DNA from: Candidatus Manganitrophaceae bacterium
GTDB lineage: Bacteria; Nitrospirota; Nitrospiria; SBBL01; Manganitrophaceae
Reading direction: 5' to 3'
NCBI GenBank assembly: GCA_016200325.1
Contig: JACQEZ010000020.1
Coordinates: 1-64,000, forward strand
Length of the DNA stretch: 64,000 nt
Shown here one piece after another: positions 15,920 through 35,562 of the stretch (its first letter is position 1; each line of letters opens with the position of its first letter). A model generated the notes under the pieces. That model saw nothing but the letters and a program-made list of their open reading frames with translations. It ran no database searches and had not been told where the DNA came from. Made by a program: the position numbers and the translations under genes.

Positions 15920-17125
15920 TCAGGGGCGGGGTTCATTCGAATCCCGCCCTTCTTTCTCCGATCTTCCTTCCCTCTTAAACACTTTCTTCAAGAGCATCAG
16001 GAAAACCATTCCGAGGAGCAAGGGGATCTCGGCTGCCTGGTTCAGGCTTCGAGGGTTCCTATTCGATCCGTTCGTGACCGCGCATCCTCCGCCGTTGGCG
16101 GCACTTTGATTTTGCGGCAGTTCGTCCGGGCCGGTCGAAAGGGGGGGAGAAGAAGGGGTTGAAATCGAAGAGACCGGAGCGGGAATGTCGGCTACCGGAG
16201 CAGGGATGTCGGATGCAGGGGTGGTGAAGAGGGTGTTGGCGGAGATCGCAAGGTTCCCGGAGCGATCGGCACTTTTTACCTGGTAATAATAGGTGGTCGA
16301 TGGGGTCAGGCCGAGTAAGGTTGCGCTGTGCTCCGTCGAAAGAGCGGTATTGGGTGCCGATGTAGAACCATACGAGGCGGTGGTGCCATACTCTACCTGG
16401 GTGGTCGCCGTCTCGTTGGTGTTCCAAGTAATAGAGGCGCTGCTGCTGGTGAGATCGATTAAAGTGAGGCCTGAGAGAAGGGGCGGCGTGGCATCGCCGA
16501 CGGGGGAAGGGGGCGTCTCGGCGGAAGTGGTAAAGGTGTGATCCGCTGAGGTGGCCCGATTTCCCGCCGCATCTCGGCTGAGAACCCTAAAATGGTATGT
16601 CGTCGAAGGGATCAGGTTTTTTAGAATCTGGCTGTGGGCCAGTCCCAATGAGGCGGCGATCGGGGTGGATAATCGATAGGAAGCGGTTGTGCCGTATTGA
16701 ACCTGGCCGTCGGACGGTTTGTCAGTTATCCAAGCGATTGTCGTGCTACTGCCGGAGGTATTGCTGGTCCGGATGCTGAGAATGATCGGCGCCGGCTCCA
16801 AAAACGTTTTGCTGATCTCGTTTGAAAACGAACTCTCCGCCGCGGAGGCGGTATAAGCGGTGAGGGCAAAGTAGTATGTTCCCGATCCGAGCCCGCTGAC
16901 CGTGTAGCTATTCTGCTTGCCGATGATAATCGGTGTTCCATAACTCCGCGACGCCGACCCATAATACACTTTATATCCGGCGAGGTTCGGATCGGTATCA
17001 CTGTCCCAAGATAAAGTCGCATTGAATGCAAAGACGGGAGAGGTCCGGCCGAGCAATGACACCGTAAGCAGGGTGAAAATAAAAAGGATGAGAAAGGGAA
17101 TTACCGTTTTTGTCCGAGATTGCAT
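15920..17125 (-). CDS. Fibronectin type III surface protein with GGGC-type C-terminal sorting signal
   Basis: Protein of 401 aa: signal peptide (~1-34), three fibronectin type III domains (~36-108, 112-200, 212-302; the latter two share VQ/EYGTTASY and L-x-PSTTYx(F/Y)x-V), a Pro/Ser linker with a repeated (D)IPAPV unit, then GGGC (345-348), a membrane helix (~367-380) and a basic tail. That C-terminus resembles Cys-containing sorting domains such as JDVT- or MYXO-CTERM, implying export to the outer surface. The ATG at 17125 lies just after a riboswitch and terminator; an upstream in-frame ATG at 17191 is inside the riboswitch and is rejected. Expression is probably set by a cyclic dinucleotide. 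Confidence 0.82.
   Translation of the reverse strand: MQSRTKTVIPFLILFIFTLLTVSLLGRTSPVFAFNATLSWDSDTDPNLAGYKVYYGSASRSYGTPIIIGKQNSYTVSGLGSGTYYFALTAYTASAAESSFSNEISKTFLEPAPIILSIRTSNTSGSSTTIAWITDKPSDGQVQYGTTASYRLSTPIAASLGLAHSQILKNLIPSTTYHFRVLSRDAAGNRATSADHTFTTSAETPPSPVGDATPPLLSGLTLIDLTSSSASITWNTNETATTQVEYGTTASYGSTSAPNTALSTEHSATLLGLTPSTTYYYQVKSADRSGNLAISANTLFTTPASDIPAPVADIPAPVSSISTPSSPPLSTGPDELPQNQSAANGGGCAVTNGSNRNPRSLNQAAEIPLLLGMVFLMLLKKVFKREGRSEKEGRDSNEPRP
15924..15949. terminator. Bidirectional terminator between convergent genes
   Basis: GGGCGGGGTTC / GAATCCCGCCC, 11-bp arms with one mismatched pair around a short loop, followed on the plus strand by TTCTTTCT. It sits just after the lipoprotein stop at 15916 and overlaps the last codons of the convergent fibronectin-III gene, so it mainly serves the plus-strand gene. 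Confidence 0.6.
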
Positions 17126-17146: not shown

Positions 17147-17182
17147 AAAAAAGCCGCCAAAAGGAATTTCCTTCGGCGGCTT
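17147..17182 (-). terminator. Intrinsic terminator following the GEMM riboswitch
   Basis: On the minus strand: AAGCCGCC-g-AAGGAA, short loop, TTCCTTTTGGCGGCTT, then TTTT, a strong stem with a U-tract. It lies between the riboswitch and the fibronectin-III gene, and its 5' arm abuts the 3' end of the aptamer (GCCCGCCAAGCCGCC), the usual arrangement for ligand-controlled termination. Confidence 0.8.
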
Positions 17183-17262
17183 GGCGGGCATGGCTTGTCG
17201 GCTTTAGCCCCGTGGCTCTGCGTCCCCATCTTTCGACAGGTTTGCTCTGAATCAAAGGATGA
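17165..17262 (-). promoter_or_regulatory. GEMM-I cyclic dinucleotide riboswitch (A20 variant, GEMM-Ib-like)
   Basis: On the minus strand the conserved GEMM-I core is present in order: CAGAGCAAACC, stem-loop TGTC-GAAA-GATG with its GNRA tetraloop, GGGACGC-A-GAGCC, then CACGGGGCTAAAGCC and the pairing CCCG of the second helix. In the Vibrio Vc2 numbering the base at position 20 is A here (CAG-A-GC instead of CAG-G-GC), the change that in Geobacter relatives shifts specificity from c-di-GMP to cyclic AMP-GMP. A terminator follows directly, so it most likely controls transcription of the surface protein gene. Confidence 0.82.
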
Positions 17263-17349
17263 GAAAGTATTTCTCGGAAATGCGATTTTATTTTTTAGAT
17301 CTTTCACGCGGCGCCGGTTGACCGGCGCCGATTTCCAAACATCCAACGA

Positions 17350-17379
17350 AATTTAGCACGGTTAAAAAATCGATGTCAA
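17350..17379 (-). promoter_or_regulatory. Candidate sigma-70 promoter of the riboswitch transcript
   Basis: On the minus strand: TTGACA (17379-17374), 18-bp spacer, TAAATT (17355-17350). A perfect hairpin, GGCGCCGG-TTGA-CCGGCGCC, at 17310-17329 would lie in the leader between this promoter and the riboswitch; its role is unknown. The remaining 120 bp up to the DUF2630 gene show no other feature. Confidence 0.5.
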
Positions 17380-26989: not shown

Positions 26990-29900
26990 GGGTATGGATC
27001 CGATCGCTCGACATAGTGCGATTGCCTCCCTGCTCTTGCGCGTGGCGCAACGCGCTGCTCGCCTGAATAATCATCTTCTCGGCGGTGTCGGCATCATCGA
27101 AGAAGGTGGAGATGCCAATGCTGATCGTGATCATTTCCAGGGACTGTTTTCCTGAAACGGAGAAATCGTGAGACTCTACCAATTTCCTGATTTTTTCGGC
27201 GGCCATCCGTGCGGCATCCCGCGTCGTTTCGGGAAGCAGCAGGGTGAAGGTGCTCCCGCCGCACCTACAGAGCGGATTCGACGCGCGTGTATTTCGCCGA
27301 AAGAGGACAGCCAACTCACGCAGCACGTGGTTGCCCGCTTCGGTTCCATGCCGTCGATTGAAGAGGCGAAATTCATCGATATTGGAGACGAAAATTGAAA
27401 AGGGGCGTTTATAGCGGAAGGCCCGATTCACCTCATCGGCCAGCCGGTTATTGAGATACCGTTCATTATAGAGGCCGGTGAGGCCGTCGATCATCTTGGC
27501 CTTGTCCGGATAGAGCTTCTCAAACTTTCGAACCTCCTGAATCAACGTCTCCTTGAGGGACGGTCCCTTATAGATGATCTCCCGGACCTGGCCGTCGAGG
27601 ATATGTTTTTCTTCGCGCGTCAGCTCCCTTGATGAAAAGAGAATGATCGGAATGTTCTTTGCGGTAGGGTGTTGTTTTAAACGGTGGATCGTCTCGATGC
27701 CCGAGATATTTTCAAGCATCAGGTCGAGGAGGATGAGATCAGGCTGTATCTCGACTGCCAAAGCAACCCCTTCTTCCCCTTTGTTCGTCTTGATGACGCC
27801 GAAGCGTTCCTCGTCGAGAATGGAGCCGATCTGTTCCATGACCGTCGTGTCTTGTTCGATGACCAAGAAGTTGATCGGTTTTCGGATGATCGATTGGGTA
27901 ATGCTATACTTCTTCAGGCTGTCGATCAGCCCTTTGCGATTGATCGGCTTCGTGAAGTAGTCGACTGCCCCCAAGCTGAAGCCGAGGGTCGGATTTTCTA
28001 CGATGGAAACGATGATCACCGGAATGTCTCGGGTGGCGGGGAGGGTTTTTAACTTCTTCAACACCTCCCACCCGTCGATCCGCGGGAGCATAATATCGAG
28101 GGTGATCGCAAAAGGTCGGAGCTCCTGCGCCTTCTCGATCGCATCTTGTCCGTCATAGGCATGAAGGATGGCATAGCCTTCCTGGGTCAGATAAAGGGCG
28201 AGCAGCTTGGCGACGGCGGGATCATCTTCAACGATGAGGATGCGGGGACGCTCTTCTTCCGTGTCTTGCAATTGAAGATTATAGGGCTGTGCGGCTCTCA
28301 CCGCGTCTTGTGAGGGAATAACCAGATCAAGCTGACGCATCCGGCTCCCCTCCGAGAGCGGGATGAGGACACGGAAGGTGCTGCCTGCCCCGGATTGGCT
28401 TTGAACCGTGATCTCCCCCCCCAGCATGTCGATAAAGCGCTTCGTAATCGCCAAGCCCAAACCGGTGCCGGGATAGTCGCGGGTATAGGAACCGTCGATC
28501 TGCTGGAATTCGTCAAAGATCTTTTTCAGCGAATGTTCCGGAATGCCGATGCCGGTGTCTCGGACCCGTATCTCGACCGCTTGGGACCGTCCGAGCCGGC
28601 TCATCCGGACATGAAGGCTAATGATGCCATTGGCCGGGGTGAACTTGACGGCATTTCCGAGGAGGTTCAGCAAAATCTGTTTAATCTTTCCCTCATCGCT
28701 GTAGATCACATCGAGCCCTTCTTCAACCGAGACGTCGAAGTGGAGGCCTTTTTTATAGGTCAGCGGGATGATCGTCTGCTGGGCCGTCTCCAATAGGCCT
28801 CGGAGGCTGAAGGGATGAGGATAGATCTCCATCTTGCCGGCTTTGATTTTGGAGAGGTCGAGGAGATTGTTGATGATCTCGAGGAGGTGTTGCCCGCTTG
28901 TGTTCATGTTCCGGACGTATGATTCTTGCTCGGAGGTCAGATCACCCGCCAAGTGGTCGAGGAGAATTTCCGAAAAACCGATAATGGAGGTCAGCGGGGT
29001 TCGGAGTTCGTGTGAGACGTTTGAGAGGAATTCCGATTTGATTCGATCCATCTCGACCAGCTTCTCCACCGTCTCCTGCTCTTTTTGGTAGAGATGGGCG
29101 TTTTCCACCGCGGTGCCGATCTGGTTCCCGATCGAGGAGAGAAGCTGTAGATCTTGCACGGTCAGGGAGTGAACCGCCCGGCTGGCGAGGGTAAAGGTCC
29201 CGATGATTTTATTTTTCGATTGAATCGGGAAGGCAATGAGGGTCTGATACCCTTCCAGTATAAAGGGGTGCTTTGTTTCCGGCTGCTGCGCCCGCTCCAG
29301 AATGACCGGCGCGCGGGTCTCGATGACCTCTTCGGAGAGGGGACGGCTTTCAGAGAAGAGGCCCTGTTGGTCGAGCAACGCGGAAGAGAGGCCGAAATGG
29401 CTCTTCATCACCAGCCTGTTTTCTTTCGGATTAAGGATCTCGATATATCCCGACTCGAATCCGGTGACCTCAATGACCTTTTCAATCGTCGTATCCAAGA
29501 GGCCTTGCAATTCGAGCGATTGGTTCGAGGTCATCGCAATTTGATTCAGCGCCTGGAGCTCGCGGGTCCGGGCCAGAACCTTCTGCTCTAAGGTCGCATA
29601 CGACTCGGAGAGCCGCTCCGCCATCTCATTAAATTTATCGGCAAGTGCCTCGATTTCATCGTTTGTTTTGACTTGAAGACGATATCCGAGATCCCCTTTT
29701 CGAATATGTTCGGCCCCCTCGTGCAACAGAAGGAGCGGCTTCACCAATTTTCCCGCGACGGTCAACCCGATGGTACCTGTAAAGACAACCAAAAGCAATC
29801 CGTATCCCGAGACAGTCCTCAGCAGCGACTGAATCGGCTCATAGGTCTCCTTCGGCTCCTGCCGGATAAAGCTGTGCCACGGTTTGCCTCCCTTCGCGGA

Positions 29901-33828: not shown

Positions 33829-35562
33829 TTAGATGACGATGACGTTGGGGATGATCATTGGATATCGGTTCATTTTCTTGGAGATGAGTTTCTTTACGGT
33901 CTGGCGGATCTTTGTCTCCATCCCTTCTTTCAGGTCGGCGGTTAACTCCGAGCCCCAGATCGGGTCGGTCTCCATGTCGGAGAGAAGGGCGCGGAGGGAG
34001 GCCTCCATCTCCTTCCAGAGAGGGTGAGGCTCGCCGCCTTGGGAAGTAAATCCACGGGAGAGGAGCGTGGGGCCCGACCGGATCTTTCTCCCTTCTTTTT
34101 CGAGGGTGACCGTCACGATGACCATTCCGTCGGAGCCGAGGTGCCGCCGGTCCTTCAAAACCGATTGTTCCACGTCGCCGATCCCTTTCCCGTCGATATA
34201 AATCCGTCCGGAGGGAATCGTCTTTCCTTTTTCGCATCTCCCCGGCCGGAGCAGAATTTCGTCGCCGTCTTCGACCACCAAAATATGTCCCGGTTCGATC
34301 CCCGCTTTCGAAGCGAGCGCGGCATGGGAGATCAGCTGCCGATACTCTCCATGGATCGGGATAAAGAATTCGGGCCGAATCCACTCGATCATCTTTTTCT
34401 GCTCCTCACGGCTGGCATGGCCGGAGACATGGACCGGCGCAATCTTTTCATGCAGCACGCGGGCCCCTTTTCTAAAAAGGTGGTTAATCACGTGGGAGAT
34501 GTCTTCCTCATTTCCGGGAATGACCCTCGCCGATAAGATAACCGTGTCACCCGGTTTGATCTGAATCTGTTTGTGATCGTCGGTCGCCATCCGGTAGAGC
34601 GCCGACATCGGCTCTCCTTGGCTTCCGGTGGTGATCAGGACCACCTCTCCATCGGGGGTATGGCCGAGGTCGTCGATCGGCGCGATCTGGTCGAGGGGGA
34701 AGGAGAGGTACCCGAGTTCCCTCGCAATCCGGACGTTGTCGATCATGCTCCGTCCGGCCAGGAAAATTTTCCGTCCCCGGCGGCTGGCAATCTGAGCGAT
34801 CTGGTCGATCCGGTGGATGTTCGAAGAGAAGGTCGCGATGATGATCCGCCCTTCCGCCTCGCCAAAGAGTTTTTCAAAGTTCTCGCCGACGCGGCTCTCC
34901 GATCCAGTGTGCCCCTCCCGCTCGGCATTGGTGCTGTCGGAGAAGAGGGCGAGAACCCCCTTTTCGCCATACTCCTTGAATCGGTCACTGTCGAAATAGC
35001 TTCCGCCGACCGGCGTGGGATCAATCTTAAAGTCTCCGGTATGAATAACGCATCCGACCGGGGTGGTGATGGCGTAGGCAACGCTGTCGACCACGCTGTG
35101 TGTCACGCTGATCGGCTCGATGCAAAACGGCCCGACAAAGATCGGCTCTCTCGGTTTAATCGAAATCAGACGGGGGGTGATCGGCGACCCATCTTCCCGC
35201 CGGAAAAGTTCCGACCGATGCTCTTTCAATTTTTCCGAAACAAAGCCGAGGGTCAGCGGGGTTCCATAAATCGGGACATCCATCTCCCGGAGAAGATAGG
35301 GAACCGCACCGATATGATCCTCGTGCCCATGGGTCAGAAAAATGCCGAGGACCTTTTTATTCGGATCAAAGAGGGAAGAGAAATCGGGGATGACGATATC
35401 GACGCCCAACATATCGTTCTTGGGGAACATCAATCCGACATCGACCAGCACGACCGAGCCTTCGTATTCGAAGGTCATCATATTCATGCCGATCTCCCCC
35501 AAGCCTCCCAGCGGGACGACATGGAGAGGGTGAACGGTCTTTTCTATTTGTTCTTGCGACAT
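33829..35562 (-). CDS. rnj: Ribonuclease J
   Basis: Protein of 577 aa of the metallo-beta-lactamase/beta-CASP family. The metal motif is H78-G-H80-E-D82-H83; later come V-I-H-T-G-D-F-K-I-D, a beta-CASP segment with F-S-S-N-I-H-R, and H-V-S-G-H-A and I-P-I-H-G-E-Y-R, all diagnostic. It combines 5'-3' exonuclease and endonuclease activity in mRNA turnover and rRNA processing. Length fits RNase J1/J2 (~555-600). It lies between rsmA and ftsK on the minus strand. No second copy is in the window. Confidence 0.92.
   Translation of the reverse strand: MSQEQIEKTVHPLHVVPLGGLGEIGMNMMTFEYEGSVVLVDVGLMFPKNDMLGVDIVIPDFSSLFDPNKKVLGIFLTHGHEDHIGAVPYLLREMDVPIYGTPLTLGFVSEKLKEHRSELFRREDGSPITPRLISIKPREPIFVGPFCIEPISVTHSVVDSVAYAITTPVGCVIHTGDFKIDPTPVGGSYFDSDRFKEYGEKGVLALFSDSTNAEREGHTGSESRVGENFEKLFGEAEGRIIIATFSSNIHRIDQIAQIASRRGRKIFLAGRSMIDNVRIARELGYLSFPLDQIAPIDDLGHTPDGEVVLITTGSQGEPMSALYRMATDDHKQIQIKPGDTVILSARVIPGNEEDISHVINHLFRKGARVLHEKIAPVHVSGHASREEQKKMIEWIRPEFFIPIHGEYRQLISHAALASKAGIEPGHILVVEDGDEILLRPGRCEKGKTIPSGRIYIDGKGIGDVEQSVLKDRRHLGSDGMVIVTVTLEKEGRKIRSGPTLLSRGFTSQGGEPHPLWKEMEASLRALLSDMETDPIWGSELTADLKEGMETKIRQTVKKLISKKMNRYPMIIPNVIVI

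Follow-up and report, generated by a model that had tools for sequence, protein, structure and literature searches.

Which second messenger does the leader of a secreted fibronectin-III (FN3) gene recognise in a bacterium of the phylum Nitrospirota, when its aptamer carries the base that marks the cyclic AMP-GMP (cGAMP) riboswitches of Geobacter? The best-known example of cGAMP signalling with GEMM-Ib riboswitches and Hypr GGDEF enzymes is that of Geobacter, in which this system governs contact between the cell and extracellular metal oxides. The host studied here is not a Geobacter relative; it belongs to the Candidatus Manganitrophus genus, whose cultivated members are manganese-oxidising chemolithoautotrophs (PMC9040806). 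Its genome comprises 4.21 Mb in 20 contigs and is estimated to be ~99% complete. We call the whole 64-kb stretch that was analysed the window; its features and those of related loci are collected in Table 1.

The full GEMM-I core claimed in the preliminary description was accepted by the covariance model. A cmscan search with all 4227 Rfam families returned c-di-GMP-I (GEMM-I, RF01051) as the sole gathering-level match within the window, on the minus strand, covering model positions 1-87 of 87 with 57.2 bits (gathering score, 35) and an E-value of 1.5e-8; searched in its own genome, the aptamer has an E-value of 2.3e-10. It combines a whole-model score above the threshold with the ligand-pairing C and the P1 helix, and the riboswitch is almost certainly real. 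In the Rfam alignment, the base at Vc2 position 20 is an A, again as first described, the mark of the GEMM-Ib subclass.

The P1 helix is also sustained in related sequences. Among 38 A20 aptamers it switches between CUUUG/CAAAG and CUCUG/CAGAG, and on average 5.79 of its 6 positions pair, a value that exceeds all of 1000 shuffles by a small margin (shuffled maximum 5.71). At the foot of P3, position 48 is in relatives either G with partner C, mostly in the A20 type, or A, usually with partner U, mostly in the G20 type. We considered G48 as a second specificity mark tied to A20 (Fisher p 1e-15) and dropped it, since it mainly tracks the change of partner: G48-C and, usually, A48-U point to a base-pair swap beside the ligand more than they argue separately for cGAMP. 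The P3 arm itself apparently contains an insertion of tens of bases in the A20 aptamers L011, L013, L014, L186, L194 and L198, so that Rfam aligns them partly or poorly.

Table 1. Features of the window and of related loci. Positions without a locus or genome prefix refer to the window.
Feature	Position	Strand	Basis or remark
GEMM-I aptamer, full length	17172..17256	-	Rfam covariance model
A20 (Vc2 numbering; model position 11), base setting c-di-GMP versus cGAMP preference	17246	-	Rfam alignment, CAGAGC
P1 5' strand, CCUUUG	17253..17258	-	pairs with CGAAGG 17175-17170, 6/6 pairs
C92-equivalent, expected partner of ligand guanine, also within terminator stem	17176	-	Rfam alignment and pilM precedent (PMC9262584)
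G at Vc2 position 48, foot of P3	17218	-	comparison with relatives
Sigma-70-like promoter, TTGACA-18-TAAATT, TG before second hexamer	17350..17379	-	consensus match only
Intrinsic terminator, 13 bp, 7 GC, then T run	17151..17182	-	terminator scan and ortholog conservation
Controlled gene, 401-aa predicted secreted FN3 protein	15920..17125	-	ORF, Pfam, orthologs with A20 leaders
Hypr-type GAF-GGDEF protein	L052:4162-3023		GHLMGS...RYGGDEF; 379 aa, gene adjoins secA
Hypr-type GAF-GGDEF protein	L051:9702-10808		GHLTGS...RYGGDEF
Clear A20 aptamers	L001-L007, L011, L013, L014		
Divergent A20 aptamer	L012		43 bits
G20 aptamers	L008, L009, L010		
Double leader L046, own genome	G000:C16:34892-34991, then 35063-35146	+	G20 then A20
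Double leader L047, own genome	G000:C20:152567-152470, then 152404-152324	-	G20 then A20
Double leaders L187, L198	sister genomes		G20 then A20

The sigma-70 promoter that had been proposed upstream of the aptamer is present as a match to 10 of 12 consensus positions, where 0.4 such matches are expected by chance. The proposed intrinsic terminator is likewise found; because the scan by itself expects 0.8 such hairpins by chance, its support comes from conservation, the orthologs of the window gene in three sister genomes (L190, L195, L200) retaining both the A20 leader and the terminator. One strand of the terminator stem (17182-17170) takes in the P1 3' strand together with C17176, and both sequence overlap and folding prediction make the terminator and the P1 helix with its ligand-pairing C mutually exclusive folds. 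The pilM riboswitch of G. metallireducens, an ON switch, has the same anatomy, with a terminator that seizes the ligand-pairing C (PMC9262584). As the terminator captures the same elements here, ligand should raise expression, and by anatomy and precedent the window leader is very probably a transcriptional ON switch.

The coding sequence behind this leader most likely starts at ATG 17125, which is preceded by GGAGA. We rejected ATG 17191, which lies inside the aptamer, as the coding frame has this better start. The protein had been described as secreted, C-terminally sorted and built of FN3 domains. Two fn3/Pur_ac_phosph_N stretches (Pfam) and a hydrophobic N-terminus bear out the first and last of these features, whereas no NCBIfam C-terminal sorting model matches the tail; this tail (GGGC, then hydrophobic, then basic residues) does resemble sorting signals, and sorting is plausible.

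Is the window leader alone in its genome? The search for further GEMM leaders proposed in the preliminary description found 14 GEMM-I aptamers, ten of them clearly A20, one a divergent A20 and three G20. The link to surface proteins that had been drawn from a single gene holds across this regulon: counting tandems, 10 of the 14 stand before six FN3-type surface-protein genes (called by Pfam for two of the six proteins and recognised by sequence for the others). L014 lies upstream of a gene for a beta-helix protein, L001 of one for a secreted protein and L010 of one for a lipoprotein-like protein, the last two proteins giving no Pfam match. Sister species show the same layout of riboswitch and FN3 gene. 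In another Candidatus Manganitrophaceae genome, an A20 core (L201, G003:C537, ~335-400) stands directly before the gene for a 450-aa protein with haem-binding CxxCH motifs.

As a source of cGAMP, a Hypr GGDEF enzyme or a DncV-type enzyme had been suggested. The second was not found: the SMODS domain (PF18144) has no match in this genome, while the same search was positive in control genomes. Hypr candidates are present: the signature of these enzymes, GHxxGS with GGDEF, appears in two of the genome's 31 GGDEF matches. The GGDEF domain of the protein encoded next to secA is closest, among all solved chains, to that of GacA (6d9m; 176 bits, the next chain scoring 123), with 83 of 161 residues identical (52% over the domain). 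Like this Hypr cGAMP synthase (GSU1658/Gmet_1914), it has Asn339, Ser348 and GGDEF rather than GGEEF, with Asp374 and Glu375 kept, and no Arg at the cross-dimer position 304, where predominantly cGAMP-making enzymes have Tyr, Ser, Ala or Gln. Position 304 is Phe, in place of Tyr, in this protein and Asp in the second candidate, the latter read by eye without residue-level alignment. The protein differs from GacA in its GAF-GGDEF architecture, in its secA neighbour and in showing no receiver domain by Pfam; its synthesis of cGAMP is a prediction. The combination of Ser with GGDEF has been reported in natural Ser/Thr-348 enzymes (PMC6456294); two proteins of this type are also known in G. sulfurreducens (PMC8835794).

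Two other GGDEF domains depart from the canonical form. The window contains a degenerate one with a GGSTF motif (27018-27494, minus strand), within a 1285-aa ORF, which is probably not a cyclase, and L029 (G000:C7:243705-244181, minus strand) encodes one that has Asn where specificity is set by Asp or Ser, together with a GGEEF motif.

Taken with the A20 set and the FN3 regulon, the Hypr-signature proteins support the earlier proposal of cGAMP-type signalling for surface structures, as far as sequence comparison can tell. We consider it probable that the window leader is a GEMM-Ib-type transcriptional ON switch for cGAMP, fed by the Hypr-type proteins. Without ligand, RNA 17182-17151 would fold into the terminator and transcription would stop. 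With 3',3'-cGAMP bound, C17176 would pair with its guanine and A20 would accept its adenine; P1 would close, the terminator would not form and the FN3 protein would be made. The two Hypr-type proteins would supply the cGAMP, and one signal would turn on FN3 surface proteins as a set, much as GacA turns on the surface cytochromes and pili of Geobacter.

How far does A20 specify the ligand? The A20G change makes Gmet_0970, a cGAMP riboswitch, into one for c-di-GMP (PMC6456294), which is why A20 is taken to favour cGAMP, and in Desulfobacca an A-type aptamer variant improved c-AMP-GMP binding (PMC9481103). A20 nevertheless confers selectivity without being proof: among natural GEMM riboswitches of Geobacter, at least that of the omcST operon is reported to respond to both ligands (PMC6456294). 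We regard cGAMP as the likely preferred ligand of the window riboswitch.

The principal competing explanation is that the leader is an ordinary c-di-GMP riboswitch carrying A20 by chance, with the FN3 proteins belonging to a c-di-GMP biofilm programme. Most of the 31 GGDEF matches keep the canonical Asp at the specificity position, so c-di-GMP is likely to be abundant; Hypr enzymes, too, are able to make it. It also fits this explanation that A20 shifts selectivity but does not act as a filter (PMC9262584); according to Keller 2018, as cited there, cGAMP riboswitches can bind c-di-GMP via a protonated adenine. However, the genome keeps its three G20 aptamers apart from the ten clear A20 ones, sometimes adjacent in one leader, an arrangement that makes little sense if both types bind the same ligand, and it encodes two Hypr-type GGDEF proteins, one of them near GacA. 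We therefore regard a c-di-GMP ligand as unlikely.

Somewhat less likely still is a dual sensor, a general ON switch that physiological levels of either cyclic dinucleotide would trigger. The omcST riboswitch offers a precedent, but the upkeep of separate G20 and A20 paralogs speaks against it, and selectivity can be high in A20 members that have been studied well, ~1200-fold for pgcA as cited in PMC6456294. Finally, a decayed riboswitch that was multiplied together with a growing FN3 family, for which one could invoke the multiplication of FN3 genes and aptamers in this genome and the divergent, low-scoring L012, is very improbable, as the window aptamer spans the whole model and retains P1, A20 and the terminator, and orthologous leaders in sister species hold the same elements while loops and spacers vary.

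If cGAMP is the ligand of the A20 type, what do the leaders that contain both types do? Four leaders of FN3 genes, two in this genome and two in sister genomes, have a G20 aptamer and, ~160-170 nt further on, an A20 aptamer. Mostly, each aptamer has its own terminator behind it; in the L009/L013 leader the first one is weak, and for L198 a simple scan found no second one. On contig 16, the double leader is followed by an FN3 gene broken into two frames that overlap, of 615 and 813 aa (L046:2159-6444, plus strand), which reflects a frameshift or an assembly error.

With the predicted ligands, c-di-GMP for G20 and cGAMP for A20, these double leaders would be AND gates. It is possible, though we put it forward tentatively, that the FN3 family of Candidatus Manganitrophus is wired copy by copy to c-di-GMP, to cGAMP or to both in series, forming natural RNA AND gates. 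A review of tandem riboswitches does not have the pairing of c-di-GMP-I with c-AMP-GMP in its table of two-input gates (PMC9481103). The nearest arrangement, the tandem AdoCbl/c-AMP-GMP riboswitches of Desulfobacca acetoxidans (PMC9481103), also sets an A20 GEMM aptamer in series with another riboswitch; here the upstream partner is a G20 GEMM aptamer, and the tandems occur in paralogous leaders, not at the window locus. If the reading is correct, members of a manganese-oxidising genus combine the two signals of surface contact that in Geobacter serve different modes of electron transfer, and the G20-then-A20 leaders are a direct test case for one mRNA integrating two cyclic dinucleotides.

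The closest known systems are the Geobacter GEMM-Ib riboswitches (pilM of G. metallireducens, Gmet_0970 and pgcA/GSU1761). Shared with these are the GEMM-I fold, A20, a terminator that captures the C, a likely ON direction, several copies per genome including tandems, and an association with genes for extracellular components. The differences lie in the Nitrospirota host, in G-C replacing A-U at the foot of P3, in a regulon composed mostly of FN3 surface proteins instead of cytochromes and pili, and in the cGAMP ligand, which is predicted here. From the Vc2-type c-di-GMP-I aptamers (G20, RF01051), of which this genome also has three, the window aptamer differs in the base that recognises the second purine, which is A instead of G, within the same family and fold.

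Beyond the genus, 296 genomes of the phylum Nitrospirota contain an exact A20 core in 33 cases and a G20 core in 50. A20 cores and the Hypr pattern tend to go together: in a set of 80 genomes, hand-picked to take in all those with A20, 29 of the 38 with A20 match the pattern, as do 16 of the 42 without (Fisher p 7e-4, ignoring phylogeny). This pattern overlooks some Hypr genes, for example where the spacer is one residue longer, and it had no match in nine A20-positive genomes from two families; in family f19, A20 cores without a match occur in G062, G071, G079, G100, G104, G108 and G126. Named genomes with close A20 cores include ones from Nitrospirota, Desulfuromonadales/Geobacteraceae, Acidobacteria and Gemmatimonadota, although these are metagenome bins, any one of which may be misplaced. 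Several A20 loci from Nitrospirota and Geobacteraceae bins, among them L053, L072, L076, L082 and L094, precede a shared small lipoprotein-like gene (CSPKIYG...). The Gemmatimonadota bins (L057-L060, L063, L064, L067, L070, L078, L085, L088, L097 and L101) have A20 GEMM cores, many with terminator-like hairpins and some before Ig-like or lipoprotein-like genes, and the Hypr pattern was matched in 1 of these 13 genomes.

While GEMM-Ib/Hypr cGAMP signalling is already known, its occurrence in the Candidatus Manganitrophus lineage appears to be new: we found no report of it in a literature search that covered few subscription papers. Both halves of the predicted system are present in a genus of autotrophs that oxidise Mn(II), and A20 aptamers with Hypr genes also occur across other Nitrospirota, which suggests that this form of signalling is older and more widespread. 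The finding also provides a testable handle on how these hard-to-culture cells may regulate surface structures around solid metal.
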